Assembly: GCA_022414725.1 (NCBI GenBank)
Contig: CM039466.1
Coordinates: 39,696,771 to 39,760,770, forward strand
Direction: 5' to 3'
Origin: Microglena sp. YARC
Lineage: Eukaryota; Chlorophyta; Chlorophyceae; Chlamydomonadales; Chlamydomonadaceae
DNA: 64,000 nucleotides
Both the position numbers and the translations under genes were made by a program. Under the pieces are notes generated by a model, which saw only the letters and a program-made list of their open reading frames with translations, was not told the DNA's origin and did no database searches. This document shows positions 3,880-47,800 of this stretch, in pieces. How positions within the stretch are numbered: position 1 is the stretch's first letter; each line of letters opens with the position of its first letter.

Positions 3880-4620
3880 CTATAGGCTTCCTTCTGCTGC
3901 TTTCTTACTACCAGAACCTGGAGATCCGATATCTGCATCAGCAGATACATCTGCGCCATTCCCTTCTTCAGCTACTCTGTCTGAAACCCCCTCAGCTACA
4001 TTTGCTTCTTCAGCTACTCTATCTGAACCTCCCTCAGCTACATTTGCTTCTTCAGCTAGTCTGTCTGAACCCCCCTCAGATACATTCGCTTCTTCAGCTA
4101 CTCTATATGAACCCCCCTCAGCTACATTCCCTTCTTCAGCTAGTCTGCCAGAACCTCCCTCAGCTACATCACTAGCACTCTCATCGTCCATCTGCTGATA
4201 AATATCAGGTGACTGTGGGCCCCCCCTTCGATCTGTAGATGCCGATGGGGATGGGGATTGGGGATGATCTCCCTCTTCCACATTCTCGCCGTGCTTCTCA
4301 TGCTCCTCTTCAGCTACATCAGCTTCATCAGGATCAGGTGATAAAGAGCCATGCACATCATGGAACGACCCCTCTTCACGTACCGCCTCATGCAATGGGG
4401 CCCCAACACCATTCAGCCCGAAGCCTCCGTTGGCCGAAGTATAGTGGTCAAAACTATCATCTTGGGCAGCGTGGGTGTATGCGTGGGGTCCCCTCTGAGG
4501 GATAGAGTGGCTGCCGTGGGGCACCTCTGGACCTGCGTAGTGTGTACTGCCGATGGTAGTGCCGGCTGTGCTGAAGTCTGTTGGGGAATCCATGTGGGAT
4601 GAGTGGTGCGGCCCAGTACC
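3880..4620 (-). CDS. Terminal exon of low-complexity Ser/Gly/Glu-rich protein gene
   Basis: This is a 741-bp minus-strand exon of 246 codons plus the TAG stop at 3880-3882. It starts behind a strong acceptor (CCACCCCTCCTGCAG, exon from 4620) in phase 0, matching the phase-0 end of the exon at 5379-6182. The N-terminal half is His/Ser/Gly-rich (PHGSHSIPQRGPHAYTHAAQ). The C-terminal half carries five to six copies of a 14-residue acidic repeat of the form RxAEEANVAEGGSD, encoded by 42-bp DNA repeats. The segment DEADVAEEE is also the source of the minisatellite at 5.09-5.38 kb. No known domain is visible, so the function is unknown. The protein is probably largely disordered. Confidence 0.65.
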   Translation of the reverse strand, partial: GTGPHHSSHMDSPTDFSTAGTTIGSTHYAGPEVPHGSHSIPQRGPHAYTHAAQDDSFDHYTSANGGFGLNGVGAPLHEAVREEGSFHDVHGSLSPDPDEADVAEEEHEKHGENVEEGDHPQSPSPSASTDRRGGPQSPDIYQQMDDESASDVAEGGSGRLAEEGNVAEGGSYRVAEEANVSEGGSDRLAEEANVAEGGSDRVAEEANVAEGVSDRVAEEGNGADVSADADIGSPGSGSKKAAEGSL

Positions 4621-4756
4621 CTGCAGGAGGGGTGGAGGAGGGGGGGAGGGTCAATTCAAAATTCAAAATTCACACCCTGCAGGGGGCGGTGGGGGGGGAT
4701 TTCCGATGCTATGGTAATTCACGAAGTTAGCAGTGCTAGACAGCTGATTATGTTGG

Positions 4757-4970
4757 CTTTCAGGCATAGCTTTTCTTTTCAGCTACCAACAGCAGCTTCC
4801 AGTCAGCTGCCCTGGAGTGCTACCCAACCAAACATCTGGAAGAGCATCTGGAAACTGACAGCATTGACTTTCCAATACTATTGAGATCTTGGGGCTTAGC
4901 CCAGTGGCTGGATCAGGGGGCTGCCTAGAAGCTGCTGCTTGTAGCTGAAAATCAAAGGTACGCTTTCAGT
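4757..4970. mobile_element. Family B MITE with target duplication
   Basis: The element runs from 4765 (CATAGCTTTTCTTTTCAGCT) to about 4962 (GTAGCTGAAAATCAAAGG...ACG) and is flanked by CTTTCAGG (4757-4764) and CTTTCAGT (4963-4970), 7 of 8 identical. It sits in the intron between the exons at 3880-4620 and 5379-6182. A related fragment follows at about 5.01-5.09 kb. Confidence 0.7.
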
Positions 4971-5089
4971 TGCACAAAATAAAATTGAAGGAACTCAATC
5001 AGGTGCTCTAGGCAGCTTGCGCTTTGGCTGGATAGCAAGCGAGGGGAGCCGCCTAGAAGCTGCTGCTTACAGCTGTAAAGAAAAGCGAT

Positions 5090-5378
5090 GATCCTATCCC
5101 ACACCCAGCTGAAACCCACCTGTATCTTTCCTCCCTTCAGCTACATCAGCTATATCAGCTACATCCCACACCTAGCAGAAACCCACCTGTATCATTTCTC
5201 CCTTCAGCTACATCAGCTACATCCCACACCCAGCCAAGGCCCACCTGTATCTTTCCTCCCTTCAGCTACATCAGCTTCATCAGCTACATCCCACACCCAG
5301 CCAAGACCAACCTGTATCTTTCCTCCCTTCAGCTACATCAGCTTCATCAGCTACATCCCACACCCAGCCAAGACCAAC
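5090..5378 (-). repeat. About 67-bp minisatellite derived from coding sequence
   Basis: About five units follow directly behind the exon ending at 5379. On the minus strand each unit carries GATGTAGCTGATGAAGCTGA (coding DVADEAD), a GAAGGGAGG...ATACAG segment equal to the end of the upstream exon, and GTTGGTCTTGGCTGGGTGTG, the donor region. So the units repeat an exon edge plus its donor, and the coding text matches DEADVAE in the terminal exon. Confidence 0.75.
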
Positions 5379-6182
5379 CTGTATTTTCCCTCCCCTCAGC
5401 TGAGGAAGGGCTACCCCACTGGTCCTTGGGGACGTGGACAACTCAGAGTTCCGCGGTGACACCAGCCGAAACATGGAGTCCATTAAGTGCTTATCCTGCA
5501 CATTTTCACCCCCTTGCCTATCCCCACTAGCCCTCGGCTCCTTAGGCCTGTTGCTTGGGGACGCGTGGGCGTGGGCTATTACTTCTGCCAGGTGTGCCGA
5601 GTAGCTGTTTGAGGTATAGTCCTCAGGCGGGGAGGAGGAGTTCTCCCCAAACTGCTGCTGGGCGCCACCCCCCAGGAAGCCAGGGGAGGTGGTGAACTGC
5701 TCTGTTGTCTGTGATCTCAAACATTCCGCATAAGCTATGGCTCGACTTCGCGTATCCCCAACTAGACCTCCGCTTCGGCTGGCTACGCCCCCCCGGCTAG
5801 CCCCCCTGGCGCCCCCTGCATGACCAGGAACGGGGGACTGCGGCGGGACTAAGCCACCTGCGAATCCCCAGGGGCTGGTCGTCGGCGTAATGGGCTCCGG
5901 AGAGCCGGCTTTCAAGCCACCTGGGGTGTACAATGAGGCTGCAGTGCCAGGTCTGGACATGCTGGAGTACAGGCTGGGATCCAGCACACCATTGGGGGGG
6001 TCTGCGCCCTCAAAGGGGGCCTTGGGCAGGGCTTCTGGACCAAGATGGTAGTCTAATTCAGTGGCAAAGGTCGAGAAGCCAGGTTGGGAGGAGGGGGTGG
6101 TGACGCCTTTCTTTGCATGGGACGCGCGCAGGGCAGGCGGCAGAGAGACTATGGAGCGAGAGAACTTGAGGTCAAGATTGGC
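5379..6182 (-). CDS. Internal exon of low-complexity Ser/Gly/Pro-rich protein gene
   Basis: This is an 804-bp (268-codon) open exon with both borders in phase 0. The acceptor is ...CCATGCAG before GCCAATCTTGACC (exon from 6182). The most likely donor is ACAG/GTTGGT at 5379/5378, a non-consensus site that is repeated downstream. The peptide begins ANLDLKFSRSIVSLPPAL and continues with TELDYHLGPEALPKAPFEGA, MSRPGTAASLYTPGG and AYAECLRSQTTEQF, and ends near SPRTSGVALPQLRGGKIQ. Composition is diverse enough to look coding, unlike the poly-Gly/Pro/Thr frames next to it. I recognise no domain. It joins in phase to the exon at 3880-4620, so the two belong to one minus-strand gene. Confidence 0.65.
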
Positions 6183-6204
6183 CTGCATGGGCAGAGTTTT
6201 TGTT

Positions 6205-6345
6205 CTTCTTTTTGTGGTGGTGGTGGTGGTGGTGGTGGTGGTGGTGGTGGTGGTGGTGGTGGCGGTGGTGGTGGTACTGGTGGTGGTAGTCTTGGTGGTG
6301 GTGGTGCTGGTGGTAGTCTTGGTAGTGGTGGTGGCAAAATAGGCC
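6205..6345. repeat. (GGT)n trinucleotide tract at an intron end
   Basis: An imperfect GGT/GTG tract lies immediately upstream (minus-strand sense) of the acceptor at 6183. It explains the poly-Thr, poly-Gly and poly-Pro frames here, which are not genes. Confidence 0.9.
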
Positions 6346-6494
6346 TGCATGGCTACTTTCTTTTTAATGGATCAATTATTAAACAAATAATTAATTAGTA
6401 CATGACGCAATTTGTCTGCAATTTATTAACATTCAAATTAATAATGTTTTCTATTTTGATATGTATGTACTTTGTATTCAAAGGGTTGCCAAAT

Positions 6495-6625
6495 AGGCTA
6501 GAGGTCAAGATTGGCCTGCATGGGAAGAGTTTTCGTTTTTGTTTCTGTGGTGGTGGTGGTATTGGTGGTGGTGGTATTGGTGGTGGTCTTGATAGGCCTG
6601 CATGGGAAGAGTTTTTGATGTTTAA
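6495..6625 (-). repeat. Duplicate copies of the 6182 acceptor region
   Basis: GGTCAAGATTGGCCTGCATG, which spans the exon start at 6182 and its acceptor, is repeated at about 6.50-6.54 kb with the same GGT-rich neighbour. A shorter copy (GGCCTGCATGGGAAGAG) lies at about 6.59 kb. These are exon-edge duplications, not extra exons with a usable frame. Confidence 0.7.
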
Positions 6626-6935: not shown

Positions 6936-7044
6936 ATATATGCATACATACAGGGCATGTGACAGGGGCACAATGGAGTGAGATAATTTGGCTTAGCCCA
7001 GTGACTGGCTCATGGAGCTGCCTAGAAGCTGCTAAGCCCTACGG

Positions 7045-7423: not shown

Positions 7424-9270
7424 GTCGAACGGACAAATGGGTAACACTGGGGGCTCCGCAAAAAAGCTACGGTATGTCCCAGATGTACTATGCCGCCCTA
7501 TGAACAAAACATCCATCCCAACACACTCACCATTGAAGCTTGCAGGATGTCTTTCTTGTCCACTACAAGTGACTGAACACTGAGATTTCTAGATGTACTA
7601 GGTCGCCTGATTACCAGAACACACACCCCAACACACTCACCATTGAAGCTTGCAGGATGTCTTTCTTGTCCACGATGAGTGACTTGACACCGAGAGTTTC
7701 AGATGTACTTAGTCGCCCGCTGTACAAAACATCCATCCCAACACACTCACTGTCAAGGCTAGCAAAATGTCTTTCTTGTCCATGATGAGTGACTGAACAC
7801 TGAATTTTCTATATGTACTAGGTCGCCCTATGACCAGAACATCCACCCCAACACACTCACCATTAAAGCTTGCCGGACTTCTTTCTTGTTCACTACAATT
7901 GACTGGACACTGAGAGTTTCAGATGTACTTAGTTGCCCGCTGTACAAAACATCCATTCCAATACACTCACCGTCAAGGCTAGCAGGATGTATTTCTTGTC
8001 CTCTGCAATCAGCTGGACACAGATTTTCAGATGTACTAGGTCACCCTATGACCAGAACATCCACCCCAACACACTCACCATTTGAGCTAGCAGAATGTCT
8101 TTCTTCTTCACTACAATTGACTTGACACCGAGAGTTTCAGATGCACTTAGTTGCCCGCTGTACAAAACATCCATCCCAACACACTCACCGTCAAGGCTAG
8201 CAGGATGTCTTTCTTGTCCACGATGAGTGACTGAACACTGAGATTTCTAGATGTACTAGGTCGCCCTATGACCAGAACATCCACCCCAACACACTCACCA
8301 TTGAAGCTTGCCGGACTTCTTTCTTGTCCACTACGAGTGACTGGACACCGAGAGTTTCAGATGTACTTAGTTGCCCGCTGTTCAAAACATCCATCCCAAC
8401 AAACTCACCGTCGGGGCTAGCAGGATGTCTTTCTTGTCCACTACAATCGGCTGGAAACAGATTTTCAGATGGACTCAGTCGCCCTATGACCAGGACATCC
8501 GCCCCAAAATAATCACCATTAAAGCTAACCAGACTTCTTTCTTGTCCACTACGAGTGACTGGACACCGAGAGTTTCAGATGTACTAGTTTGCCCACTGTA
8601 CAAAACATCCATCCCAAAACACTCACCGTCGGGGCTAGCAGGATGTCTTTCTCATCTACTACAATCAGCTGGACACTGTAACTTTCAGATGTACTCAGTC
8701 GTCCTATGACCAGAACATCCACCCCAACACACACTCACCACTTAAGCTAGCAGAATGTTTTTCTTGTTCACTACAATTGACTGGACACCGACAGTTTCAG
8801 ATGTACTTAGTTGCCCCCTGTACAAAACATCCATCCCAAAACACTCACCGTCGGGGCTAGCAGGATGTCTTTCTCATCTACTACAATCAGCTGGACACTG
8901 TAACTTTCAGATGTACTCAGTCGTCCTATGACCAGAACATCCACCCCAACACACACTCACCACTTAAGCTAGCAGAATGTTTTTCTTGTTCACTACAATT
9001 GACTGGACACCGACAGTTTCAGATGTATTTAGTTGCCCGCTGTGCAAAACATCCATCCCAACACACTCACTGTCGGGGCTAGCAGGATGTCTTTATCTCC
9101 GACTAAAATCAGCTGGACGCTGTGACTTTCAGATGTACTCGACCGCCCTATGGAAAGAACATCCACCCCAAAACACTCACCATTGGTGCTAGCAGAATGT
9201 CCTTCTTGTCCACTACGAGTGGCTGGACACTGCGATTTGTAGATGTACTAGTTCGTCCTGTGTATGTTAC

Positions 9271-9315
9271 AGTCCAGGGGTAGGCCAAATAGGCAAAAGG
9301 GACTTGCCCAACCTT
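9271..9315 (+). repeat. Family A fragment inside the 110-bp array
   Basis: The text GTTACAGTCCAGGGGTAGGC and the following GGGACTTGCCCAACC match family A. It interrupts the array between units. Confidence 0.65.
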
Positions 9316-9469
9316 GCCCTATGAACTAAATATCCATCCCAACACACACACCATTGGAGCTTGCAGGATATCCTTCTTGTCCACTACAATTGACTGGATG
9401 CTGACATTCCCAGATGTGCTAGATTGCCCTGTAATCCAATAAGCAGAACATCCAGCCCAACACACTCAT

Positions 9470-9550
9470 CATTGGAGCTACCAGGATGTCTTTCTTGTCC
9501 TCTACAACCGGCTTGACACTGAGATTCACGGATGTGCCAGAGCCAGAGCC
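9470..9550 (-). CDS. Possible 81-bp in-phase exon copy
   Basis: Behind the acceptor TTGTTCATAG lies a 27-codon phase-0 stretch coding GSGSGTSVNLSVKPVVEDKK followed by DILVAPM. It follows the phase-0 end of the exon at 9584 across a mini-intron of only 33 bp. The expected donor GTGAGT is mutated to ATGAGT here, so use of this exon is doubtful. It is the only array unit whose length and frame fit a real exon. Confidence 0.3.
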
Positions 9551-9583
9551 CTATGAACAAAATATCCATTTATAAACACTCAC

Positions 9584-10151
9584 GCTTGGGGCTCGCAGTA
9601 TATCCTTCTTGTCCACCACAATTGACTGGATGCTGACATTTCCAGATGTGCTAGGTCGCCTAGTATGCCGCAGCATCCAGGTGGAGTCCCAGGGTGAGGT
9701 CCCAGGACGGTAGTTGGGCGTGTGAGGGGGCCCAGCCCCCCCAGCCCCCATGCTACTCGCAGTCCCCAGCCGCCCCTGACCCTGTTGTGGGGTCCATCTG
9801 CCTTGTCCCTGGCTGTACCCCCCGGAAGGGGTAGAGGGGGGCCCAGCCCCCCCAGGTCCCCCTCTGCTGGGGGCCCTTACACTGGGGCCCCCAGGTTGGG
9901 AGTAGGAGAAGGACGCTACCCTGTGTACGTGAGCTCCATAGTTTCTGTGGCCAGCCCCCCCTGCGGGGGCAGAACTGCGGGCACGACGTGTAGGAGACAG
10001 GTTTGTACCGCACATGTGGGGGCCTGAGGCAGTACCATGAGGCCCCCCCCTAGAGGTTGGTGCAGTAGCTGCAGATCTAGACGTGAGAGGGCCATGCCTA
10101 GAGGCGGTGTGTTGGGGGCTTTGGGCGAGGGATGACAGCCCAGGGGGAGAA
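9584..10151 (-). CDS. Gly/Pro/Ser-rich exon upstream in the same minus-strand gene
   Basis: The exon starts behind GATCGCAG (exon from 10151, one base of a split codon) and ends before the good donor GTGAGTG at 9583. About 189 codons are open, with GGPSVRAPSRGGPGGAGPP, SYSQPGG and a well-mixed C-terminus ending STSGNVSIQSIVVDKKDILR plus APS. The last 25 residues are the source of the 110-bp array. The order, strand and style agree with the exons at 5379-6182 and 3880-4620, so I infer one gene. The function is unknown and a largely disordered protein is likely. Confidence 0.5.
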
Positions 10152-10336: not shown

Positions 10337-11425
10337 CTATGTGTCGCTTGCCCTCTCAGTTCCATTTCTCCCTCCTAGTGCTTCAATCCTCTGACCAAGC
10401 CCAAAAATGAAAAAAATGAAAAAAAGAATGGGATTTACAAAACAAAAAGAGGAACAGAGGCAACAGATCAACAAGAAGAAAATAAAACCAATGGCCCTGT
10501 CTACCTGTGTGCTGCTTGCCCTCTCAGTTCCATTTCTCCCTCCTAGTGCTTCAATCCTCTGACCAGGCCCCAAAATGAAAAAAATGAAAAAAGAATGGGA
10601 TAGACAAAAAGAGGAAATGAGAGGAACAGAGGATACAGATCAACAATAAGAAAATAAAAACCAATGCCCCTGTCTACATGTGTGCTGCCTGCCCTCTCAG
10701 TTCCATTTTTTCCTCCTTGTGAATCAATCCTCCAGCAGGGCCCAGAAATGAAATAAGGAAGGGGAAAAGAAAGGAAAAGAAATAATAGAAAGAAATAATG
10801 GGAAGAAGAAACGAGAGGAACATAGGAAACAGATCAATGAGCAGAAAATAAAAACCAATGGCCCTGTCTGCTTCTGTGCTGCTTGCCCTCTCAGTTCCAT
10901 TTCTTCCTCCTTGTGAATCAATCCTCTGGCCAGGCCCAGAAATGAAAAAAGAGAGAGAAAAAGAAAGAATGGAAAGAAGGAATGGGAAGAAGAAACGAAG
11001 GGAACAGAGGAAACAGATCAATTAGCAGAAAATAAAAACCAATGGCCCTGTCTGCCTGTGTGCTGCTTGCCCTCTCAGTTCCATCACTTCCACCTTCTGC
11101 ATCAATCCTCCGACCAGGCCCAGAAAATGATAAGAGGAATGAAGAAAAAATAGGAATGGGAAAAAATGCCTGCCTGCCTGCCTGCTGCTTGCCCTCTCAG
11201 TTCCATTTCTTCCCTCTTGTGGAGCAGTCCTCCGGCCAGCAATGAAAAAGGAAGAAAGAAGGAAGGGAAAGTAGGAATGGGAAGAAGAAACAAGAAAAGA
11301 GACAAAGAAATGAGGAGAAGAAATGAGAAGAAAAAACTAGTGTACCCTCCTATGTATACCTGTGAGTCGCTCGCCCTCTCAGTTCCATTTCTTCCTTCTT
11401 GTGGAGCAATCCTCCGACCAGGGCT
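10337..11425 (-). repeat. Array of about seven units, each with a 54-bp exon-like core
   Basis: On the minus strand each unit has a T-rich tract, then (C/T)TGGTCAG, then a 54-bp core coding RIEALGGRNGTERASSTQ or variants, then GTAGAC. The best cores are 10337-10390 and 10505-10558, both exactly 54 bp, in phase, with AG before and GTAG after. Later copies at about 10.68, 10.87, 11.06, 11.18 and 11.36 kb have lost an acceptor or donor, or shifted frame. The spacing is about 125-185 bp. This is a duplicated cassette exon with its splice sites. Confidence 0.8.
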
Positions 11426-11469
11426 TGCTCCTTGGGCGACAGAAACGACAAAGCATCTGCCGATCGGCT

Positions 11470-12180
11470 TTTGATCTGCAACACAAACAAGCACATTTTG
11501 TTTATTATTATTGGGCTCAGGTTGAGGAAAGAGTTGAGGGAAGAATGGTCAAAGAGCTCCAACTTGAAGTTCGGTGTCACATTCAGGTGCGATCAGTTTT
11601 TAATCTGCCACAAAAACAAGATTGCACATAGGTTGAGGAAAGAGTTGAGGGATGAATGGTCAAAGAGATCTAACTTGAAGTACGGTTTCGCATTCAGGTG
11701 TGATCGGTTGTTGGTCTGCCCCACAAACAAGATTGCACATAGGTTGAGGAAAGAGTTGAGGGATGAATGGACAAAGGTGCCCCAGCTTGAAGTTCGGTGT
11801 CACATTCAGGTGTGATCGGTTGTTGGTCTGCCTCACAAACAAGATTAAGCATAGGTTGAGGAAAGAGTTGGGGGATGAATGGTCTAAGAGATCTAACTTG
11901 AAGTTCGGTGTCGCATTCAGGAGTGATTAGTTGTTGACCTGCCACACAAACAAGATTGCGCATAGGTTAAGACAGAAACGACATTGCATCGGCCAATCGG
12001 CTTTTGATTTGCCACACAAAAAAGATTGGGCAGATAAGTGGTTGAGGGATGAATGGTCAAAGAGCTCCAACTAGAGATTCGTTCCGCATTCAAGTGTGAT
12101 CGGTTGTTGACCTGCCACACAAACAAAATTGCGCATAGGTTAAAGAAAGAGTTGAGGGACGGATGGTCAAGGGTACCTTC
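11470..12180 (-). repeat. About 125-bp minisatellite with acceptor-edge units
   Basis: About six units. On the minus strand they read TTGTTTGTGG(G)GCAG, an acceptor, followed by ACCAACAACCGATCACACCT and GTTAGATC, then CTCAACTCTTTCCTCAACC. The unit nearest the gene (acceptor TTTGTGTTGCAG at about 11477) starts ATCAAAAGCCGATCGG and runs on into the last 54-bp core. Confidence 0.75.
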
Positions 12181-14189: not shown

Positions 14190-14320
14190 TATGTTTAGAG
14201 ACCGTCGTATCATATGATGTAGACCAAATGAGGGTATGTTATCATATGATATCGTACAATCAGACTGCCAGTATCATATGGTGACATGATATAATATTGT
14301 CGTACCCTAATTATGTTGCG
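14190..14320. repeat. AT palindromic insert between satellite blocks
   Basis: CATATGATATCGTAC, TATCATATGGTGACATGATA and related palindromes match the block at 1-420. They separate the older 125-bp units from the 132-bp units. Confidence 0.7.
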
Positions 14321-15262
14321 GGTAGGGGAAACTCTGCGGTGGTCACACTGCCTGTTTACAAGCAGCACCCCATGTGCCCAGCACTTGCTGCTCTTTCTCT
14401 GGTATGACAGAACGTGATGTCCAGGTTTGGGCTAAGGTGTATTATGTTGCGGTTATGGGGAAACTCTGCGGTGGTCACACTGCCTGTTTACAAGCAGCAC
14501 CCCATGTGCCCAGCACTTGCTGCTCTTTCTCTGTTATGACAGAACGTGATGTCCAGGTTTGGGCTAAGGTGTATTATGTTGCGGTTATGGGGAAACTCTG
14601 CGGTGGTCACACTGCCTGTTTACAAGCAGTACCCCATGTGCCCAGCACTTGCTGCTCTTTCTCTGTTATGACAAAACGTGATGTCCAGGTTTGGGCTAAG
14701 GTGTATTATGTTGCGGTTATGGGGAAACTCTGCGGTGGTCACACTGCCTGTTTACAAGCAGCACCCCATGTGCCCAGCACTTGCTGCTCTTTCTCTGTTA
14801 TGACAGAACGTGATGTCCAGGTTTGGGCTAAGGTGTATTATGTTGCGGTTGTGGGGAAACTCTGCGGTGGTCACACTGCCTGTTTACAAGCAGCACCCCA
14901 TGTGCCCAGCACTTGCTGCTCTTTCTCTGTTATGACAGAACGTGATGTCCAGGTTTGGGCTAAGGTGTATTTTGTTGCGGTTATGGGGAAACTCTGCGGT
15001 GGTCACACTGCCTGTTTACAAGCAGCACCCATGTTGCCCAGCACTTGCTGCTCTTTCTCTGTTATGACAGAACGTGATGTCCAGGTTTGGGCTAAGGTGT
15101 ATTTTGTTGCGGTTATGGGGAAACTCTGCGGTGGTCACACTGCCTGTTTACAAGCAGCACCCCATGTGCCCAGCACTTGCTGCTCTTTCTCTGTTATGAC
15201 AGAACGTGATGTCCAGGTTTGGGCTAAGGTGTATTATGTTGCGGTTATGGGGAAACTCTGCG

Positions 15263-18200
15263 GTGTCACACTGCCTGTTTACAAGCAGCACCCCATGTGC
15301 CCAGCACTTGCTGCTCTTTCTCTGTTATGACAGAACGTGATGTCCAGGTTTGGGCTAAGGGTGTATGTTGCGGTTATGGGGAACTCTGCGGTGGCTCACA
15401 CTGCTGTTTACAAGCAGCACCATGTGCCAGCACTTGCTGCTCTTTTCTCTGTTATGACAGAACGTGATGTCCAGGTTTGGGCTAAGGTGTATTTTGTTGC
15501 GGTTATGGGGAAACTCTGCGGTGGTCACACTGCCTGTTTACAAGCAGCACCCCATGTGCCCAGCACTTGCTGCTCTTTCTCTGTTATGACAGAACGTGAT
15601 GTCCAGGTTTGGGCTAAGGTGTATTATGTTGCGGTTATGGGGAACCTCTGCGGTGGTCACACTGCCTGTTTACAAGCAGCACCCCATGTGCCCAGCACTT
15701 GCTGCTCTTTCTCTGTTATGACAGAACGTGATGTCCAGGTTTGGGCTAAGGTGTATTTTGTTGCGGTTATGGGGAAACTCTGCGGTGGTCACACTGCCTG
15801 TTTACAAGCAGCACCCCATGTGCCCAGCACTTGCTGCTCTTTCTCTGTTATGACAGAACGTGATGTCCAGTTGGGGGCTAAGGTGTATTATGTTGCGGTT
15901 ATGGGAAACTCTGCGGTGGTCCACACTGCTGTTTACAAGCAGCACCCCATGTGCCCAGCACTTGCTGCTCTTTCTCTGTTATGACAAACGTGATGTCCAG
16001 GTTTTGGGCTAAGGTATTAGTTGCGGTTATGGGGAAACTCTGCGGTGGTCAAGCAGCACCTCCTGTGCCCAGCACTTGCGCTCTTTCCTCTGTTATGACC
16101 TGTTTAGAGCAGTCACGGTTTGGGTAAGGTGTATTTTGTTGGCATGGGGAACCCCATCTGGCGGTGCCAGCACTTGCTGCAAGGCAGCACCCAAATCCCA
16201 GCACTTTCTCTTTCTCTGTTTTATTGACAGAACGTGATTGTTGCGGTAGCACCCCGCATTGCCCGGCACTTGCCTGCTTCTTTTCTCTGTTATGACAGGA
16301 ACGTGTCGGTTTGGGGCTAAAGGTGGTATTTTGTTGCGGTTATGGGGAAACTCTGCGGTGTGTCTAAGGTGTACAAGCAGCAGCCCCATTTTGTTTGCCA
16401 CACTTGTGGTCTTTCTCTGTTCTATGTTGCCGGTTGTCCAGGTGGGATTTCTGTTGCGGTTATGGGGAAACTCTGCGGTGGTCACAACTGCCTGTTTACA
16501 AGTGTGCCCAGCACTTGCTGCTCTTTCTCTGTTTATGATGTTTTTGGGCTAAGGTTATTATGTTGCGGTTATATGGGAAACTCTGCGGTGGTCACACCAC
16601 CTGTTTACAAGCAGCACCTTGCTGGTTAATAAGGTTGCCTCAGTTCTCTGCACCCATTAGCACCCTTGAGTTTGGGTTAAGGTTAATTAGTCTATGAACG
16701 CTGCGACACCTAGGGTTGGGCTAAGGGTGTATTTTGTTGCGGTTATGGGGAAACTGCTGGCGGTGGTTCACACTGCCCTGTTTACAAGCAGCACCAATGG
16801 ATGAGTCATGTGCCAGCACTTGCTGCTCTTTCTCTGTTATGACAGAACGTGATGTCCAGGTTTGGGGCTAAGGTGTATTTTGTTTCCGCGGTTATGGGGA
16901 AACTCTGGCGGTGGGTCACACTGCCTGTTTACAAAGCAGCAACCCCATGTGCCCAGCCACTTGCTGTCTCTTTCTCTGTTATGACAGAAAGGTGTATTTT
17001 GTTCGTGATTCTGTCCAGGTTTGGCAACCCTTGCCCAGCACTTGCGTGTCCTTCTCTGTTAAGAACGTGTGTTCTCATTAAGGTGTTGTTGCGGTTATGG
17101 GGAACCCTGCTGTTTACTCTGCGGCTGCTCTTTTCTCTGTTTGAAAAGTGGTCAGGTGTATTATGTTTGCACTGCGGTGGTCTGTGTTACAAGCAGCACC
17201 CCATGTTGCCCAGCACTTGCTGCTCTTTCTCTGTTATGACAGAACGTGATGTCCAGGCGTTTGGGAAACTCTGCTAAGGTGTACCAACCGCACCTTAGTT
17301 GCGCTCCTTCCTTCAATGTTATGGGGAAAGTGTCTCTCTCAACAACTCTACGCGGTCACACCTGCCTGTTTACAAGCAGCACCCCATGTCCCAGCACTTG
17401 CTGCTCTTTCTCTGTTATGACAGAACGTGATGTCCAGGTTTGGCGCTAAGGTGTATTTTTGTTGCGGTTATGGGGAAACTCTGCGGTGTCACACTGCCTG
17501 TTTACAAGCAGCACCCCATGTGCCCAGCACTTGCTGCTCTTATCTGTTATGACAGAACGTGATGTCCAGGTTTGGGCTAAGTGTATTATTGTTGCGTTAT
17601 GGGCGAAAAACTCTGCGGTTCACACTGCCTGTAGTTACAAGCAGCACCCCATGTGTGCTCCCACATCTGGCTCTTTCTCTGTTATGACAACTTGTTCCAG
17701 GTTGGGCTAAGGTGTATTTGTTGCGGTTATGGGAAAGCTCTGCGGTGGGGCACACTGCCTGTTTTACAACAGCACCCCTGTGCCAGAACCAGGCACTTGC
17801 TGCTCTTTCTCTGTTATTGAACAGAACGTGGATGTCCAGGTTTGGGGCTGAAGGGTGTATTTTGGTTGCGGTTATGGGGAAACTCTGCGGTGTAACACTG
17901 CCTGTTTTAACAGCAGCACCTCATGTGCTCCAGCACTTGCTTGCTGCTTTTCTCTGTTATGACAGAACGTGATGTCCAGGGTTTGGGCAGGTGTGTATGT
18001 TTGCGGTTATTTGGGGAAACTCTGCGGTGGTCACACTGCTGTTTACAAGCAGCACCCCATGTGCCCAGCACTTGCTGCTCTTTCTCTGATTATGACAGAA
18101 CGTGATGTCCAGGTTTGGCTAAGGTCTATTAGTTGGTTGCGGTTATGGGGAAAAGCTCTGCGGTGGTCACACTGCCTGTTTACAAGCGCAGCACCCCATG

Positions 18201-26770: not shown

Positions 26771-27764
26771 TATTTTTTGTTCGGTATGGGGAACTCTGCG
26801 GTGTCACACTGCCTGTTTACAAGCAGCACCCATGTGCCCAGCACTTGCTGCTCTTTCTCTGTTATGACAGAACGTGATGTCCAGGTTTGGGCTAAGGTGT
26901 ATTATGTTGCGGTTATGGGAAACTCTGCGGTGGTCACACTGCCTGTTTACAAGCAGCACCCCATGTGCCCAGCACTTGCTGCTCTTTCTCTGTTATGAAC
27001 AGAACGTGATGTCCAGGTTTGGGCTAAGTGGTGTATTATGTTGCGGTTATGGGGAAACTCTGCGGTGGTCACACTGCCTGTTTACAAGCAGCACACCATG
27101 TGCCCAGCACTTGCTGCTCTTTCTCTGTTATGACAGAACGTGATGTCCAGGTTTGGGCTAAGGTGTATTTTGTTGCGGTTATGGGGAAACTCTGCGGTGG
27201 TCACACTGCCTGTTTACAAGCAGCACCCCATGTGCCCAGCACTTGCTGCTCTTTCTCTGTTATGACAGAACGTGATGTCCAGGTTTGGGACATAAGGTGT
27301 ATTTTGTTGCGGTTATGGGGAAACTCTGCGGTGGTCACACTGCCTGTTTACAAGCAGCACCCCATGTGCCCAGCACTTGCTGCTCTTTCTCTGTTATGAC
27401 AGAACGTGATGTCCAGGTTTGGGCTAAGGTGTATTATGTTGCGGTTATGGGGAAACTCTGCGGTGGTCACACTGCCTGTTTACAAGCAGCACCCCATGTG
27501 CCCAGCACTTGCTGCTCTTTCTCTGTAACGGCGGAATGGGATGTTCAGGTTTGGTCTGAGGTGTATTGATGCTGATGCTGCTGATGCTGAAGCTAGTGCT
27601 GATGATTACATTTCCCTGGTGCTCAACTGGACTCCAAATGTGCCTGCCGCTTGACGAATTCAAAGAGGACATCCTGAACATAAACGTAACAAGAAAAAGA
27701 GGTTGCACCCCATATAAGTAGTGAAACGTTTCCTTGGTTTTCTGGGTACACAGTGCTCATTTAA

Positions 27765-33556: not shown

Positions 33557-36500
33557 CATTCCTGCCTGTCCCCCATCTCCGTTCTCCTCAGCCTCCTTGG
33601 CCGCCTTCTCCAGGGTGTCCGTCATGATGCGAATAAACTCCTCATACTCCACTTCTCCTGACCCATCAGTATCGACCGCACCCACCCTATCTGCCACCTC
33701 CTTCTTGGTGTTGATGATACCTACGCGGGTTATGATTGATTATGTGAGGACTCCATTGTAGGGCAGGCGGACATGTAACCGTGTGTAAAAGGGTCGCAAC
33801 CCACTCAGGAATAACTCATCCACAATCTCCGCCACCTCCTTCTTGATGGTGTGGATACCTACAAGGGTTTTGATTGATGGTGGGAGGACTCCAATGTAGG
33901 GCAGGACATGTAACAGTGTCTAAAAGAGTCTCACCCACTCAGTATTAAGTCATCCACGATTTCTGCCATCTCCTTCTTGGTAGTGTGAATATCTACAAAG
34001 GTTATGTATGTATGTATGTATGTATGTATGTATGTGTGTATGTATGTATGTATGTATGTATGCATGCATGTACTAGCAAGGTAGCCTGTGTGGCCAATGG
34101 CCACCCCCCACCCCCGCCCACCCATGTCTTGGTCTGGGTTACAGAACGGATAACGCCCTTGTATGTACCCCCCCCCCCCCCCCCCTCCATTACCCCCTTC
34201 CACACACTCAACCGCACACAACCTCTCTTCCTTACATACACACAGTCAAGAATTTCCCGCTTTGCGACTGAAAATATGTATCGCATGCCCCCTTTCTTTT
34301 TCCTACTATATATTTATATACCCCCCCCACACACACACACCCCTTGAAGCACAATCTGTTTCCCCCCCCCCTGCACCCCCTACCTCACACCACCCAGCCA
34401 TCTCCAATCTTGCTGGACGCTACCCTCCCTCTCCCCTGCACCCACAGACGCCCACAAGTACACCCATTTCCCCTACCTGATCCCCTTCACTCCAGCTGTG
34501 GGCGTGGATTGTGCAGGAAGACAAAGGGGATTGAAGTGCAGGCTGCGGATACAACCTATCGAAAACTTGCAATGCATTTGAGCTGCTTGGTAGGTGCAGG
34601 GGGGTGGGATGGAGTAGGGTGGGGTGGGGGTGGAGAGGGGTGGGGGTGGAGTAGGGTGGGGTGGGGGTGGAGTGGGGTGGGGTGGGAATGCATTCGAGCT
34701 CCTTGGTAGGTTCAGGGGGGTGGGCCACCCCAACCCAACCCCACCCCACTCCATCCCGACCCCGTGCACCAAAAATGCAGCTTGAATGCATCCCCCCTCC
34801 CCCCACAACACCGCACCCCACTCCATCCCACCCCCCTGCACCTACCCCCACTCCACCCCCCTGCACCTACCCCCACTCCATCCCCACCCCCACCCCACCC
34901 CCTGCACCTACCCCCACTCCACCCACCCCACTCCCACCCCCCTCCATCCCAACCCCCCTGCACCTACCCCCACTCCACACCCATCCCCTCCATCCCATCC
35001 CTCTGCACCTACCCCCACTCCACCCCACCCCACCCCCTCCATCCCAACCCCCTGCACCTACCAAGCAGCTTGAATGCATTGTCCAGCTCGTCCACATCGA
35101 TGGCTCCAGAACCATCTTCGTCCATCAAGTTGAAGCATTCGCCGAAGTCTTTTGTCTGCTGCTCAGTTAGCTTGACAGGTATATGCTGTTGTACAGTTCA
35201 GGGGTTTAGGGCTATATGGGTGTGTGTTGGTGTGTAGATGTGCAGGGGTGCAGGGGTGTACGGGTGTAGGCGTGCAGGGGTGCAGGGAAGTCATGGGTCT
35301 GCTGCTCAGTTACCTTGACCGGTATGTGCAGCGGTACAGTACAGGGGTTAAGGGCTATATGGGTGTGTGTTGGTGTGTAGATGCGCAGGGATGCAGGGGT
35401 GCAGGGGTGTAGGTGTGTAGGTGTGCAGGGAAGTCATAGGTCTGCTGCTCAGTTAGCTTGACAGGTATTTGCTGTTGTACGGTACAGGGGTTTAGTGCTA
35501 TATGGGTGTGTGTTGGTGTGTAGATGTGCAGGGTTGCAGGGGTGTACGGGTGTAGGTGTGCAGGTGTGCAGGGAAGTCCTGGGTCTGATGCTCAGTTAGC
35601 TTGACAGGTATGTGCTGCGGTAAAGTACAGGGTGTTAGGGCCATATGGGTGTGTGCTGGTGTGTAGATGCGCAGGGGTGCAGGGTTGTAGGGGTGCAGGG
35701 AAGTCCTGGGTCTGCTGCTCAGTTAGCTTGACAGGTATGTGCAGCGGTACAGTACAGGGTGCTAGGGCTATATGGGTGTGTGTTGGTGTGTAGATGCGCA
35801 GGGGTGCAGGGGAGCAGGGGTGTACGGGTGTAGGTGTGCAGGTGTGCAGGTGTGCAGGTGTGCAGGGAAGTCCTGGGTCTGATGCTCAGTTACCTTGACA
35901 GGTATTTGCTGCGGTACAGTACAGGGGTTGAGGGCTATATGGGTGTGATGGTGTGTAGATGTGCAGGGGTGCAGGGTTGTACGGGTGTAGGTGTGCAGGG
36001 GTGCAGGGAAGTCATGGGTCTGAAGCTCAGTTATCTTGGCAGGTATGTGCAGCGGTACAGTACAGGGGTTTAGGGCTATATGGGTGTGTGTTGGTGTGTA
36101 GATGAGCAGGGATGCAGGGGTGCAGGGGTGTAAGTGTGCAGGGGTTCAGGGAAGTCATGGGTCTGATGCTCAGTTATCTTGGCAGGTATGTGCACCGGTA
36201 CAGTACAGGGGTTTAGGGCTACATGGTTGTAAAGGTGCCCAGATGTGGAGGGGTGCAGGGTTGCAGGGGTGCAGGTGTGCAGGAGTGCAGGGAAGTCCTG
36301 GGTCTGCAACCCTGTTAGCTTGGCAGGTATGTGCTGTTGGTCAGTACAGAGTTGTAGGGTTGTATGGGTGTGCAGGTGTGCAGATGCGTACCACACCACA
36401 TAGGTTTGCAGGTATGCGGATGTGTAGGTGTGCAGGTGTATCGGTGCGTAGGTGTGGAGGTGTAGCGGTGTGTAGGTGTGTATAGATTGTGTATGTGGAT

Positions 36501-37093
36501 GTGTATACGTGTGCAGGTGCGTAGGTGTATAGATGTGCAGGTGTAAAGTTGTATAGGCGTGCAGGAGTATGGGTGCACAAGTGTGCAGGTGGCATTCCTT
36601 GCCTCTCTTTTTCAGCCATCCTGCTAATTGCGGAGTCTGGTGCACATATATACACCCAAACACCTGCACACCTATACATCTACACACCAGCACACCTATA
36701 CACCTGCACACCTGTACATGTACAAACCTGCACACCTATACACAATAAACCTGCACACCTTTACACCTGTACATCTACACACCTATACACCCATACACCT
36801 ATACATCTACACACCTGCACACCTATACACCTATACATCTACACACCTGCACACCTGTACACCCATACACCTGTACATATACACACCTATACACTCCCAT
36901 GCAGGTGGCATACCTTGCCTCTCTTCTTTAGCCATCCTGCCACTTGCACAAACAAGGGGGCATTGACATCTGCCAGTTCCTTTGAAAAGGAAGAGGGCAT
37001 CTTGGGTGTCCCATTGGCCCCGTCCCTACGCACAACATGCAACAAGTTGTTCGGCCTCAGCAGCATCAAACGCCGATAATCATCACAATCCAT
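33557..37093 (-). CDS. EF-hand calcium-binding protein, 5' three exons
   Basis: Three exons join in phase on the minus strand. Exon 1 (37093-36914, 60 codons) starts at ATG right after an in-frame TGA. It reads MDCDDYRRLMLLRPNNLLHV and ends VAGWLKKRGK before donor GTATGC. Exon 2 (35185-35062) follows ACAACAG and reads HIPVKLTEQQTKDFGECFNL. It carries EF-hand 1 at about residues 82-93 (DEDGSGAIDVDE) and ends with one base of a Gly codon before GTAGGT. Exon 3 (33720-33557) reads IINTKKEVADRV and holds EF-hand 2 at about residues 118-129 (DTDGSGEVEYEE), then MTDTLEKAAKEAEENG, ending at ATG/GTAGGT in phase 0. Both loops have full calcium-ligand residues and the spacing of a calmodulin/centrin-type pair. 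Further 3' exons must exist below 33.5 kb but I cannot assign them. A role as a calcium sensor is inferred. The gene is unusual because exon edges are amplified into minisatellites in its introns. Confidence 0.8.
33770..34002 (-). repeat. Two degenerate copies of the EF-hand exon 3 start
   Basis: Behind CCTTGTAG and CCTTTGTAG lie copies coding IHTIKKEVAEIVDELFLSG and IHTTKKEMAEIVDDLILSG. They match the start of exon 3 but run into other sequence before the second calcium loop. They may preserve an older form of the exon, because KKEVAEIVDE is nearer the family norm than the KKEVADRVGA of exon 3. Confidence 0.75.
34003..34070. repeat. (TATG)n microsatellite
   Basis: About 15 TATG-type units, with one TGTG variant. 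Confidence 0.95.
34565..35060. repeat. G-rich then C-rich arms with inverted copies of the exon 2 donor edge
   Basis: The plus strand carries GCATTTGAGCTGCTTGGTAG at about 34.57 kb and GCATTCGAGCTCCTTGGTAG at about 34.69 kb. These are inverted copies of the true exon 2 3' edge and donor, which is on the minus strand at 35.06 kb. They are followed by GGGGTGGGATGG-type repeats, and the true edge by CCCCACTCCATCCC-type repeats. The two halves can pair into a long hairpin. Confidence 0.7.
35186..36350 (-). repeat. Array of eight extra copies of the EF-hand exon 2 start
   Basis: On the minus strand each unit of about 125-165 bp contains TAGCCCTAACCCCTGTACTG, an acceptor (GCAG or ACAG), and CATACCTGTCAAGCTAACTG AGCAGCAG, the first codons of exon 2 (HIPVKLTEQQT). 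Copies of the TTAGCTTGACAGGTA core lie at about 35.30, 35.45, 35.59, 35.72, 35.89, 36.03, 36.17 and 36.31 kb. The coding match fades after about 16 codons (TQDFPE in place of TKDFGE), and the calcium loop is never included. Confidence 0.85.
36360..36900. repeat. CA/TA-rich minisatellite with a copy of the exon 1 donor edge
   Basis: CACACCTATACACCTGCACA and CACACCTGTACATCTACA variants fill the stretch, in opposite senses left and right of about 36.6 kb. At 36.58-36.65 kb a copy of the exon 1 end (coding AGWLKKRGK) is present, but its donor GTATGC is changed to GAATGC. Confidence 0.75.
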
Positions 37094-41834: not shown

Positions 41835-44800
41835 ATTGCTCTTGTACAACTTATCATCTCGCGCTCAGAATCTGGACACACTAGCTAAAGAAGAACCAGG
41901 ACAACCATGGTGAGTACTGTTAGCTATTCCCGCATGCTGTTGTCCTTTGTCGCAACTTGATCGGCACTAAGTCCCGTAAGACCTACGGGCAAACATGGGA
42001 CCGCTGGGGAGCTGCCGGAATAGCGCTTTTCCTAGCTATGCTGCGCCAATGTACTCCCGATCGGCTGACACTTAAGTACATTGGCACAGTGTAGCTAACA
42101 CGTCCTTTAGCATTCCTGCTTGTTTGCATCTCTTTAGTTGCTCAGATGTGAGGGACGCTGTTCCGGACATCCATGTCCCATAGTGTAGCGTAGGAGTTCT
42201 TTGTAATGCCTTGGTTGATGCCTTGGACCGTACGCACCGTTCTCGTTTCCTGAAAAGTGCACGCGTACGGTCCGTACTCACGACACTCTTGCATAGTCAG
42301 TTCCATGATACCAAGTGGCTTTACTTTTTGCTGCCTTCGAACATGATCAGCATTAGACCAGTACCATATCCATAATCATCAAACCTGATTGCTCGTGACT
42401 CCTCTCTCCACCTGCAGACACCGAGCAGCTTGCAAGCTGATACTTCAAGAAATCAAAGACCCCTTTCATTTCGACTCTTTCACATCCACTCACTCATCCC
42501 GCCAACCCCAAGTGTGCCTACTCTTTTGTAGGAACGTGAACACCATTTAAACTGAATCCTCGGTGCCGCTAGTTTGTGTCGGGAGATCCATCCCCTGGGG
42601 GGAACTTCATTTCATTAAAAAAAAAAAATCCTTCACCTATGTGCAGTCGTCCATCATCCACCAGAAGGTTGCGGACGACAGCTGCCATATACCTGTGGAT
42701 GCGCCAGATGTCAAGCCAAGTGGGCAGAGTAACTGGCTTGACAAGGGCAATACCGATGGAGGCAGGACAAAGAATCGCAAGATGTACCGCAAGGATATTT
42801 CCCCCGCCCAGGCCGTGCGAGATATTGCATCTGAGGTAAGGTCCATGATGTATTCCCTCTCACCCTTGTTTGATTCAATGCTTGAAGGGGAACCTATGAC
42901 GAGGTCTCCAAACGAGGCAGTGGTGTACACAACCAACAGCCTCTTTCAGTGATATACATCGGTCTACTGGTAGACTAATTCACTTTAAGAATGAAGAGTC
43001 GGGGGTTCGACTCCCCCTTCGGTCGCTCTTGGGGTTGCAAGTCGTCGTCAACCGCGAAGGTAGCTTTTCCAGCTGAGGTAGGAGACCGCTCCCCACCCGC
43101 GTACAACGGGCTCCCTTAACACTACGCCCCACCAGGCGTTATCATTATCATTACACAACTAACACAACTTCATGAACTGGTCCCAAACAAATAAGTGTGT
43201 ACACGTCTCCACCATAGCTTTTCTAATCAGCTACAAGCAACAGCTTCTAGGCAGCTTCCCTAACCGGCAGCTTCCCTAACAGGCAGCTTCCCTAGCTTTT
43301 ATAATCAGCTTCTAGGCAGCTCCCCTAATCGGCTAGTCAGCCAAACCTGATGCAACCTAGTGCACCTTGAAGCTGACCCAACCAGCTTTCCTGTATTGTT
43401 GCCATCTTGGAGCTTGGCCCAGGGGCTGGCTCAGGGAGCTGCCTAGAAGCTGCTGCTCGTAGCCAAAAAGAAAAGCTATGGTCTCCGCTCTACATAAATC
43501 TACTGCTCATACAAATTATACAACCCATAAGCAGACTCAGAGAACATGCTCCTTACCCTTAATTGTATTGGCTGCAGGAAAAGGCTGTCGGTAAAGCTTT
43601 ATTTAAAAGCAAAGCAGGCTCAAACATTATCGAGCGTGAAAAACAATTGCTGGGCGTGAAAGGAGAAGGTAAGTACGCACCCTCACAGGTCGCTTGTCTA
43701 CCGTGGTCAATATGGGTAATGGTGAATGTTTGTTTGGTTGAGGGTCGGTATCTCCCGCCGACCCTAAGCGGCCTACTCTTTTGTAGGAGTGGCAACGCCA
43801 TTCGAACTGAATCCTCAGTGTTGCTGGTGTCTGTTGTGAGACCCATCTCCTGGGCTGAAATTTCTTTCACAACTTAAAAACAAAAATAGGGGGCAGCTTT
43901 ACTCTCAGATGTATTGTCAGGTACATGTATGTATATTCACAGTCCATGGGTAGCCAAATAGGCCCAAAGGACATGAAAACAGGAAAGGCAGTTGAAAAAA
44001 CAAGCACTAGTGAACTGAACCCCAACAAATCGTATACAACGGGGGCATGTAGTTCGTACTATGCAGTTGATTTAACTTCTGGTGCTACAAGTTCCATTAC
44101 CCTACTTGGCTGCCCCAGGACTGTAACATACGTACAATGCATTGCAATTATGTACCAACCCTGTCTAGTTTATGCTTACCTTAACATGTATCCAGGTTTA
44201 GTGTGGCTTAGCAGATGTTATACTTCCCATGTTCAATCCACCCGCAGACGGTGATCAGCCTGGAGGCTGACAGCCCTTGCCATCAACCCAACTGAAAGAG
44301 CTATAGAACCTCTGAATTCACCTCACTCACATGGCCCACATGACCTCGCTCACATGGCTGGCTGCAGAAACTACGAAGGAGGTTGCCATCACCTACTTGA
44401 TTGGTACCCTGGCCACCTGTCAACCACAAAATGTCTAAATTCACCTCACTCACATGGCTGGCTGCAGATACTACCGAGGAGGGTACCATCACCAACTTGA
44501 TTGATACCCTCGCCACCTTTCATGCAAAAAATCTCTCCTCAGAGGATCTACAAGCCAGAAAAGAAGCTACCATGAAGCTCTGGGCGCCCTCACAGACCTC
44601 CGGCCTCCTCTCCACACATGATGCTACTACCAAGAATGGAGCCCCTGCAAGTTTAGAGCCCTACAACACAGCGATCGCCACACCAGAGCATATCACTGCT
44701 ATGGCTGCCAACGTTCAAGCCCGCCATAATCTCGCTGGGGAAGCTGCGTTTTGGGCCGCCCCCCAAAATCTTGCTGGAGAAGCTGAGTTTTGGCCCGCCC

Positions 44801-47800
44801 CCCAAAATCTTGATGGAGAAGCTGGGTTTTGCCTGGGCAACAGGGAGACAAGTCAGCTTGACGCATCTGGGTACAACATGCTCGGAAGCTCCGCTTGTAT
44901 GATGGAGGACAAGGAGACAATTCCCATGTTCCAGGCTGTGCTGAAGGAGTACAACATGGCTGCACAAGAGATGGTAAGTGCTGATGATGTGGCTGTTCAT
45001 ACCTGAGACAATTATGTATTTTTATGACTCCCAATTGACTCATGCCCTTGGCTCTTGCCCCCTGCCCTTGACTCCTGCCCCCTGCCCATTACTCCTGCCC
45101 CTGCCCATTACTCCTGCCCCCTGCCCCTTGACTCCTGCCCCCTGCCCCATTACTCCTGCACCCTCTCTCCTGCCCCCTGCCCCCTTACTCCTGCCCCCCG
45201 TCCCCTTACTCCTGCCCCCTGCCCCTTGACTCCTGCCCCCTGCCCCATTACTCCTGCACCCTCTCTCCTGCACCCTGCTCCCTTACTCCTGCACCCTGCC
45301 CTTGACTCCTGCCCCCTGCCCATTACTCCTCCCCCTGCCCCCTTACTCCTCCCCCCCTCTCCTGCCACCCCCCCTCACTCCTGCCCCCTTGACTCCTTGC
45401 CCCCTGTCTCTGACTGCAGACCTCTGCTTCCAACGGCTCCCCATCCAGCAATGGATCCTCAAGAAGCTCCACTACGATTGCCAATGCCAGTCCAGTTCAC
45501 CAAGCTCACGCTGCAACCAACTTTCCTGGGATGGCGATGTCCGGTGATGACCTACACCACCTCGAGGCGGGTGACTGCATTGAGGACCTGATTCCCATGT
45601 GGTCTTTGGACTGTTCCAACATGATTCTGGGTGGTGGTGCGGATGATGAGCTCAACCCTCAAGACTTCCACCATCTCTTGGACATTGTTCCCCACAAATT
45701 GCAGCCAGCCTTCCAGGATTCCACTTTTTCCACTCCTGCTTCCTCTGATTTTATCCAAGAGGTGGTCTACACAGGGCTGATGCAAGTCAACCGTTCCGAC
45801 AATGTTGCTCCCTTGTTGATTGTGTCGGACCATGCCTCGGCATGCAGTGAGGACAATGGCAGCAACGTGAATGATCTGCCTCGCATCCTTAATTTGGCGA
45901 CCGGCTCCGACTTTGGTACAGCTCCCGCTGCCGACGGTGACCACAGTCCCAATTTTCAGTTCCACATCTGGCATAATCAGCATGATGAAGAGGAGGACGC
46001 AGCGATAGAGCTTCTAATGACCCAGATCTCTTATTTCTTGCCTCTGCAGCACCAGGTCCACGCCCCCCAAATGGGCCAAGGCCAAACACACCCGCCCCCC
46101 TGCCTGCGCCCTGCTGGCGATGGTTCTGACTCTGCCCCTCTCTTTGATACCTCTGCGCAAGGGGCGATGAAGAAGATATGCTACCGGGACTCCAAGAGCT
46201 ATGAGATCTCAGATACCCACTGGAAGGTGATGGACACCCGAGGCATGTTTTTGCATGATGGTATCTCCCTCGTTGATCGTGTCAGCTCCATGGTGGCTGA
46301 GGTGGACCTCCTGGTGCCTACAGACAGTCCAGTCAGGGGCATGAAGAGGAGCTTAAGCAGCATCATGACGGAGGTCCCTACTCTGGCTGGGCATGCTGGA
46401 TTCAGAAGTGAATCAATGACCGAGTCGCAGATACATTACCTGGTGAGGGAGTCTCATAAGAGTACCGAGGACAGGGAGTGCTATGACCACGCTGCTAATG
46501 CCCAGCAGCAGGTTCCAGTGAATGTGAAGACAAAGGATCGAAACATCACCAAAGCTGACTTTGAGGAGGTAGGTGATGTAGACTGATATCGTCCCCTATG
46601 ATCTATTTCCTGTCCGATAGCCATGCCTTACCCTATCTATTGCCCATGCTCTATTCGTTGCCCATGCTCTATCCATTGCTTATGCCCTATTGCTATATCC
46701 ATAGCTACTGCTTATGCTTAATCCATAGCTACTGCTTATGCTTAGTCCATAGCTACTGCTTATGCTAATCCATAGCTACTGCTTATGCTAATCTATAGCT
46801 ACTGCTTATGCTAATCCATAGCAACTGCTTATGATCATCCATAGCTACTGCTTATGATAATTCATAGCAACTGCTTATGCTTATCCATAGCTACAGCTTT
46901 TTCTCTATTAGGATCCCTGACACCTACCAGTGTTCAACTGCCCTCTGATTAAATTACCCTCTGTCCCTCATGCCCCTTGCATACTCACCCCCCCACACAC
47001 ACCACCGCCCCTGCCACATGCAGGTGTACCACCTTCACAATCACCTCCCCAACCACCTCCCCAGTCACCTTCCACAAGACAGTGTACCACCTCCCCAACC
47101 CCTTCCCCAATCACCTTCTACCCGCAGATGTACCACCTTCCCTTGGCCGAGGCTGGTCAAAGGCTTAATTATGGGAGTACCGCTATGAAGGATCTCTGCC
47201 GCCGCTTCAACATCGACCGCTGGCCATACCGCAAGCTCTCCTCCCTCGATAGTCTCCTCCGTGACGTTGAGGCTGGAATTGTGGATGACCCAGGAAGAGG
47301 ACACGTAAGCATACCCATTGCTTGCTTGCTTGCTTGCTCGACTACCTGCTTGCCTACCTGCTTCTCTCCCTTGCTCCCTCCCTCATTCCATCCCTCACTC
47401 CCTCAATCCCTCCCTGCCTCCTTTCCTTGTTCCCTGCCTCCCTGCCACCCTACATCCTTCTCCCCCTGTTTCCCTCGTTCCCTCCCTGCCACCCTCCCTC
47501 CCTCCCTCCCTTCCTCGTTCCTTCTCTCTCTCATTCTCTCCCTCCATCATTCCCTCCTTCATTCCCTCAATCCCTCCCTGCATCCCTCCCTCGCTCCTTC
47601 CCTCCCTGCCCCCCTCCCTCTCCCCCCCTCCCTCTCCCCCCCTCCCTCGTTCCCTCCCTGCCACTCTCCCCCCTCCCTCCCTCGTTCCTTCTCTCTCTCA
47701 TTCTCCCCCTCCCTGCCTCCCTCCTTCATTCCCTCCCTCTCTCATGCCATATCTTGCAGATGATCAAGAACACGATTATAAAACTCAAAGCAAAGATCAG

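Follow-up and report, generated by a model that had tools for sequence, protein, structure and literature searches.

The window analysed here, a 64-kb stretch of a 568-Mb eukaryotic assembly (2390 contigs), contains three genes that carry tandem arrays: gene A (~3.9-11.5 kb, reverse strand), which encodes a low-complexity protein; gene B (33.6-37.1 kb, reverse strand), which encodes an EF-hand protein; and gene C (42.6-47.9 kb, forward strand), which encodes an RWP-RK protein. Arrays with a period of at least 20 bp covered 30% of the window. Across 20 stretches of 10 kb, spaced evenly along the genome (loci L009-L028), the mean coverage was about 27%, with a range of 0-69%, and the genome is repeat-rich and uneven in its tandem-repeat content. 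Coverage at this level indicates that tandem duplication is common genome-wide, and it means that chance overlap of arrays with exon borders has to be weighed seriously. An Rfam scan of the window gave no match. A 132-bp satellite forms several blocks over ~13 kb of the window (14310-27567), outside the annotated introns, and a dispersed element with inverted arms (4764-5104) had 39 further places in the genome among the 40 candidates scored.

Arrays at the exon borders of three genes

The spliced models of genes A, B and C were open and kept their frame, and the exon borders assumed in them are, judged from the sequence, sound. In gene A the reading was open across four exons, and in gene B an EF-hand pair spans the junction of exons 2 and 3 (EF-hand_7, 3.9e-12). 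Spliced gene C, the first exon of which is partial, was open to a terminal stop; the only relatives found for it were three EukProt proteins (P0001-P0003), which gave four alignments at 40-57% identity with junctions inside them, some with gaps. The exons and arrays, with the evidence for each, were as follows.

Gene A, reverse strand
11519..11968: 111-bp array beyond exon a1 (TRF)
11360..11475: exon a1 (open frame and GT/AG junctions in spliced gene A)
10448..11126: array of the a1 end and donor, ~184-bp unit, 4 copies (TRF, border copies, exon-only homology)
9584..10151: exon a2 (spliced gene A)
7480..9583: array of the a2 end and donor, 110-118-bp unit, 18 copies (TRF, border copies, exon-only homology)
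6497..6617: a3 acceptor and exon start, two partial copies with borders near 6515 and 6597 (border-copy search)
5379..6182: exon a3 (spliced gene A)
5096..5401: array of the a3 end and donor, 67-bp unit, 4 copies, reaching 23 bp into exon a3 (TRF, border copies)
3901..4620: exon a4 (open through the 720 bases read; 3' limit provisional)

Gene B, reverse strand
36914..37093: exon b1 (spliced gene B)
36584..36631: b1 end and donor, one copy, 48 bp, 90% (border-copy search)
35154..36372: array of the b2 acceptor and exon start, 143-bp unit, 8 copies (TRF, border copies, exon-only homology)
35062..35185: exon b2, EF-hand (spliced gene B, EF-hand profile match)
34726..34791: b2 end and donor, one copy with its border near 34773 (border-copy search)
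33690..34006: array of the b3 acceptor and exon start, 138-bp unit, 2 copies (TRF, border copies, exon-only homology)
33557..33720: exon b3, EF-hand (spliced gene B, EF-hand profile match)

Gene C, forward strand
44343..44536: c3 acceptor and exon start, 100-bp unit, one copy (TRF, border copy, exon-only homology)
44468..44973: exon c3 (spliced gene C, alignment to P0001)
47042..47142: c5 acceptor, 46-bp unit, borderline (TRF)
47128..47304: exon c5, RWP-RK domain (Pfam RWP-RK 4.5e-16 in the containing ORF; spliced gene C)

Defining a border copy in the window as a local copy that extends 10 bp or more past the border on each side, we found such copies at 10 of the 23 borders, with 1 to 18 copies each: at 5 of 7 borders in gene A, 4 of 5 in gene B and only 1 of 11 in gene C. 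The original prediction had described tandem units joining exon edges to their splice sites in three unrelated genes, and every example was re-found by TRF and the border-copy search. In the EF-hand gene these comprised eight copies at the acceptor of exon 2, two at the acceptor of exon 3 and one at the donor of exon 1; the acceptor of the RWP-RK exon at 44468 had one copy at a period of 100; and the low-complexity gene had 4 donor copies at 5.1 kb, 2 acceptor copies at 6.5 kb, 18 donor copies at 7.5-9.6 kb and 4 donor copies at 10.4-11.1 kb. Two borders were added to this list, the donor of EF-hand exon 2 and the acceptor of exon a1, where one border-spanning copy lies near 11983 (reverse strand), just outside the 111-bp array. 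Two details of the prediction had to be corrected. Most arrays were said to include the acceptor side, but donor and acceptor borders with copies were equal in number (5 each), and the units were said to reach 15-40 codons into the exon, but the reach measured in six window arrays was mostly shorter, at 15-71 bp (5-24 codons). At the c5 acceptor the border-copy search gave no border copy, and the exon-edge score was 24 against a control maximum of 23 (23 against 23 in another run). Tandem repeats also occur in frame within coding exons, at 3957-4169 (unit 42 bp) and 44719-44831 (39 bp), both units being multiples of three.

Exon-edge copies in kinesin introns

A kinesin profile search of the genome, in which 122 of 325 candidates were scored, gave 128 matches, some of them being extra partial exon matches adjoining full ones. 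Kinesin genes were taken in E-value order where two profile-contiguous exons lay within ~3 kb (L033-L041 and L043-L050), yielding 25 introns (50 borders) with junctions set by homology and splice consensus. This rule was applied by eye with the extra copies in view, and the sample is near-complete, at least three qualifying pairs having been overlooked (C2:19976894-19979937, C5:30610026-30612874 and C1:20635081-20635983). L042, a near-copy of L038, was left out of the kinesin counts. The introns of L029 and L031, picked for their visible copies, were kept apart, and L030 and L032, picked for the same reason, stand outside the counts; the codon counts, gradient tests and splice-site scoring given below take in the families of the biased loci L029 and L031. 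Six splice junctions were set by hand from the sequence, four of them in the unbiased set, and L047-L050 had all five of theirs read by eye. L047-L050 are part of the 25-intron counts, and counts for the first 20 kinesin introns were made without them.

The first 20 kinesin introns have 40 borders, and copies were present at 10 on the donor side and 15 on the acceptor side. In an exon-edge test, each intron was matched against 60 bases of exon-only edge from its own gene, the edges of other genes serving as controls. The own edge scored above every other-gene control at 34 of the 50 borders in kinesin introns and 10 of the 20 in window introns, and the alignments reached within 10 bp of the border in 31 of the 34 and 9 of the 10 cases, respectively. 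Pieces lying wholly inside exons beat the controls at rates that fell with depth: 6/55 at 80-140 bp, 4/52 at 100-160 bp, 1/46 at 120-180 bp and 1/29 at 150-210 bp. When arrays with units of at least 60 bp were considered, 14 of the 18 in the first 20 kinesin introns matched the edge of their own exon better than any control. The remaining four were L038, which tied only with its paralogue L042, L037#3, which was ambiguous, and L034#1 and L036#1, which held no such sequence. All seven such arrays in the window held own-exon-edge sequence, two of the seven being one family. Exon-edge copies in introns are a real feature, common in the sampled genes and found well beyond the window. With the dynein AAA_9 profile, 37 genome matches were obtained, among which inspection by eye picked out only one or two additional partial exons; since HMM matches need long exonic parts, this count weighs neither for nor against the pattern.

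Border preference and intron length

Arrays had been predicted to be in excess at exon borders. By base coverage they were not: 9 of 20 window borders had a local copy against 12.4 expected, and intron-interior positions had one in 66-68% of cases, compared with 9/20 borders in the window and 25/40 in the kinesin introns. Because the same arrays fill the intron interiors, this coverage test was dropped and we switched to family counts. In raw placement, borders were touched by 15 of the 28 arrays whose units measured 40 bp or more, against 5.9 expected (P=5.7e-5), a result that was weakened by intron collapse. None of the 55 arrays with units of 8-29 bp touched a border, which, with 0.3 expected, is no evidence either way.

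Repeat families were defined as grouped long-offset repeats of at least 40 bp, filtered for complexity. The 25 kinesin introns contained 28 border-linked and 2 unlinked long-unit families, and the window 6 linked and 3 unlinked, one of the families scored as unlinked holding the a3 acceptor copies. Border-linked repeats made up about 16,680 of the 28,998 kinesin intron bases, more than half of the sampled intron sequence, so that border-crossing tandem duplication can supply a large share of intron length. Uniform placement at present intron lengths predicted 8.9 of 39 families at a border, and 34 were seen (P=3.6e-19). The arrays have themselves lengthened the introns, and the expectation rose to 19.8 when long families were collapsed (P=7.7e-8, or P=0.00028 with a twofold detection weight that allows for slower decay of border copies), to 25.3 when all repeats were collapsed (P=1.9e-4) and to 29.2 when all repeats were collapsed and the twofold weight was applied (P=0.024). 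For the window alone, no excess was left after these last two treatments (P=0.11 and P=0.39). The predicted excess thus appears by family count and shrinks after intron collapse. The median kinesin intron is 968 bp long now and about 240 bp with all repeats collapsed, and in an intron of the latter length a random duplication of ~125 bp would straddle a border more often than not. Short ancestral introns may account for most of the border excess, a residual preference for borders being possible.

We also considered where the units break. The exonic part of the unit measured 15-140 bp, the upper value coming from kinesin locus L031, and the intronic part 31-128 bp. The exon share of the unit (0.22-0.76) was not clearly non-uniform (KS p 0.079, n=18 including 3 from biased loci; p 0.25, n=18, with a minimum of 31 intron bases, a limit taken from the same data). 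A lower limit on the intronic part would fit the requirement that the last copy keep a functional acceptor. As to the predicted duplication process tied to splice borders, the family excess speaks for it but is mostly lost under collapse with the detection weight (P from 3.6e-19 to 0.024), and a process tied to exon-intron borders is only weakly supported. There was no sign of a lariat- or splice-site-defined endpoint, the breakpoints being not clearly non-uniform relative to the border.

Evolution and origin of the copies

Copies differed from the exon edge by 0-27%, with overall difference rates of 0.066, 0.079 and 0.200 at codon positions 1, 2 and 3, a bias that, taken by itself, would point to coding sequence. 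Changes private to one copy numbered 27/30/32 at these positions (P=0.81 vs even), changes on the branch of the real exon or stem 2/1/16, and changes common to several copies 21/24/51; two families of ambiguous frame, L044#1 A and c2don-c3acc A, are absent from these counts. Since the private changes are even and those on the exon branch are biased to the third position, the copies as a class change like non-coding sequence, being partial exon edges and apparently not exons, and the real exon is constrained. The suggestion that the arrays feed exon gain finds no support in this non-coding mode of change, and no case of exon gain was seen. Third-position-biased changes in several copies would fit changes in the exon between successive copying rounds. 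The array at 7.5-9.6 kb, the frames of which are mostly open, had been considered as a set of tandem functional exons and was ruled out as such by the codon-position test. In 18 of the 23 families with at least three copies, a set that includes four families from biased loci, the nearer copies were more exon-like (sign test p=0.011), and deviating copies lay farther out, the family-weighted values being 0.72 at codon positions 1-2, 0.61 at intron columns and 0.61 at third positions (permutation p 0.002, 0.014 and 0.08, respectively). These patterns would fit stepwise growth of the arrays next to the exon.

The donor GT was preserved in 56 of 59 copied donors and the acceptor AG in 79 of 91 copied acceptors, above the mean of flanking sites, but family-weighted GT/AG retention fell among the values of individual flanking positions. 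A simple weight matrix was built on 40 introns, among them the duplicate L042 and the biased loci L029 and L031. By this matrix, 52 of 61 copied donors and 65 of 91 copied acceptors scored within 2 bits of the real site, and the best copy equalled or exceeded the real site in 15 of 20 donor and 17 of 27 acceptor families. Because many copied sites score like real ones, splicing would have to pass over strong decoys. As modelled by this score, site strength does not separate real from decoy sites in these families, and recognition of whole exons (exon definition) likely picks the real ones. Decoys that are in many cases as strong as the real site by a simple score offer a natural test of splice-site choice.

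Structures of this anatomy, called mirages, are described in amphioxus as minisatellite-like tandem copies of the exon-intron boundary in Adh3, the globins BflGb6 and BflGb9, PGBD5 and troponin C (TnC) (PMC3087553, PMC3902484). According to these accounts, mirages lie on the donor or acceptor side, have units of 10-160 bp and in many cases carry splice signals, and Adh3 data and globin RT-PCR suggest that splicing is undisturbed (PMC3087553, PMC3902484). As in our genome, the tandem unit spans the boundary and both donor-side and acceptor-side forms occur; the mirages, for which length instability between alleles is a further trait, are described in a handful of genes, whereas in this other eukaryote own-edge copies mark 34 of 50 sampled kinesin borders, a much higher density. 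We found no report of border-spanning arrays outside amphioxus in the open-access library searched. The lineage and the density of the arrays appear to be new, as does the evolutionary test applied to their copies. Mirage-type arrays, earlier known from a few cephalochordate genes, occur here at the majority of the borders sampled in a gene family unrelated to those. The copies preserve non-coding relatives beside a conserved exon, which makes them useful for timing and for measuring mutation.

We consider it probable that the arrays are mirage-type and reflect neutral tandem duplications that straddle the border, combined with exon definition, short ancestral introns and purging inside exons. 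Duplications, mostly of about 60-240 bp, would arise broadly along genes, and those within exons would be purged. Those that straddle an exon-intron border would survive, splicing presumably reading whole exons and not single sites: the gene would retain one intact border, extra partial copies would end up in the intron, and further rounds would build the array and lengthen the intron. Border arrays would dominate since introns were short at the onset of the duplications, and most of the border excess would arise because random duplications in once-short introns were filtered by selection. Against this neutral account stand the residual border excess (P=0.024) and the GT/AG dinucleotides, which are intact above the flanking average, something not required of neutral copies.

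A tenable though doubtful alternative is that mutation itself favours borders, through a process such as repair linked to transcription or chromatin, which would start the duplications and go on renewing them out of the exon. The linkage of 28 of 30 long-unit kinesin families to borders, the excess over uniform placement that survives collapse of all repeats, the closer likeness of nearer copies to the exon and the outward position of deviating copies would all follow from it, but most of the excess is gone if ancestral introns were about 200-250 bp long, the breakpoints look uniform, and any stepwise tandem array can give a distance gradient. Its boldest form, in which border-preferring duplication is a main engine of intron growth in this lineage and the arrays, built from the exon outwards with the older copies farther off, are a time-ordered record of past exon sequence, with up to 18 decoy copies passed over at one border, is speculative, and we doubt it. 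It seems unlikely that duplications were uniform and that border arrays merely last, or stay recognisable, longer through a slowly decaying exon copy that re-homogenises its neighbours. The exon branch does have few changes at codon positions 1 and 2 (2 and 1, vs 16 at position 3), and the nearest copies are the most exon-like, but the twofold detection weight alone leaves an excess when long families are collapsed (P=0.00028), and the copies diverge from one another too. That the copies are real tandem cassette exons is very improbable: their splice dinucleotides are mostly intact, only 13 of 146 contain a stop codon and frames are mostly open over the short aligned part, but private changes are even over codon positions and the observed copies are partial exon edges. 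A dispersed satellite, transposon or assembly artefact, conceivable in so repeat-rich a genome, deserves almost no credence, given that copies at 44 of 70 borders match their own exon edge above all 25-34 other-gene edges, that the main part of the 5.1-kb array has no match elsewhere in the genome (40 candidates scored; simple or very common words skipped), and that a copy-exon difference of 0-27% is unlike a collapsed or duplicated read stretch.

Border-straddling duplication has also been linked to new introns, and a model attributed to Rogers reportedly derives intron gain from tandem genomic duplication. The preferred reading, neutral duplication across borders, has two further points of comparison. 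In a potato RdRp gene, a tandem duplication across an intron-exon border is described as having given a spliced intron and exon (PMC4974935); the border-crossing event is alike, but that copy became spliced, whereas the copies here, as a class, evolve as non-coding sequence. Earthworm metallothionein genes have an intron minisatellite and exon 4 duplications that are absent from transcripts, and share with our genes a repeat-filled intron beside exons; unlike the arrays here, the repeats are not described as spanning exon borders in the part of that account that deals with them (PMC12783039). At L034, near 1999 and 3736, a kinesin intron starts with GTGCCACGG and the downstream exon starts with GTGCCACCGG, a pattern that may go back to an AG|GT-type duplication from which the intron arose, or to the mirage copies.
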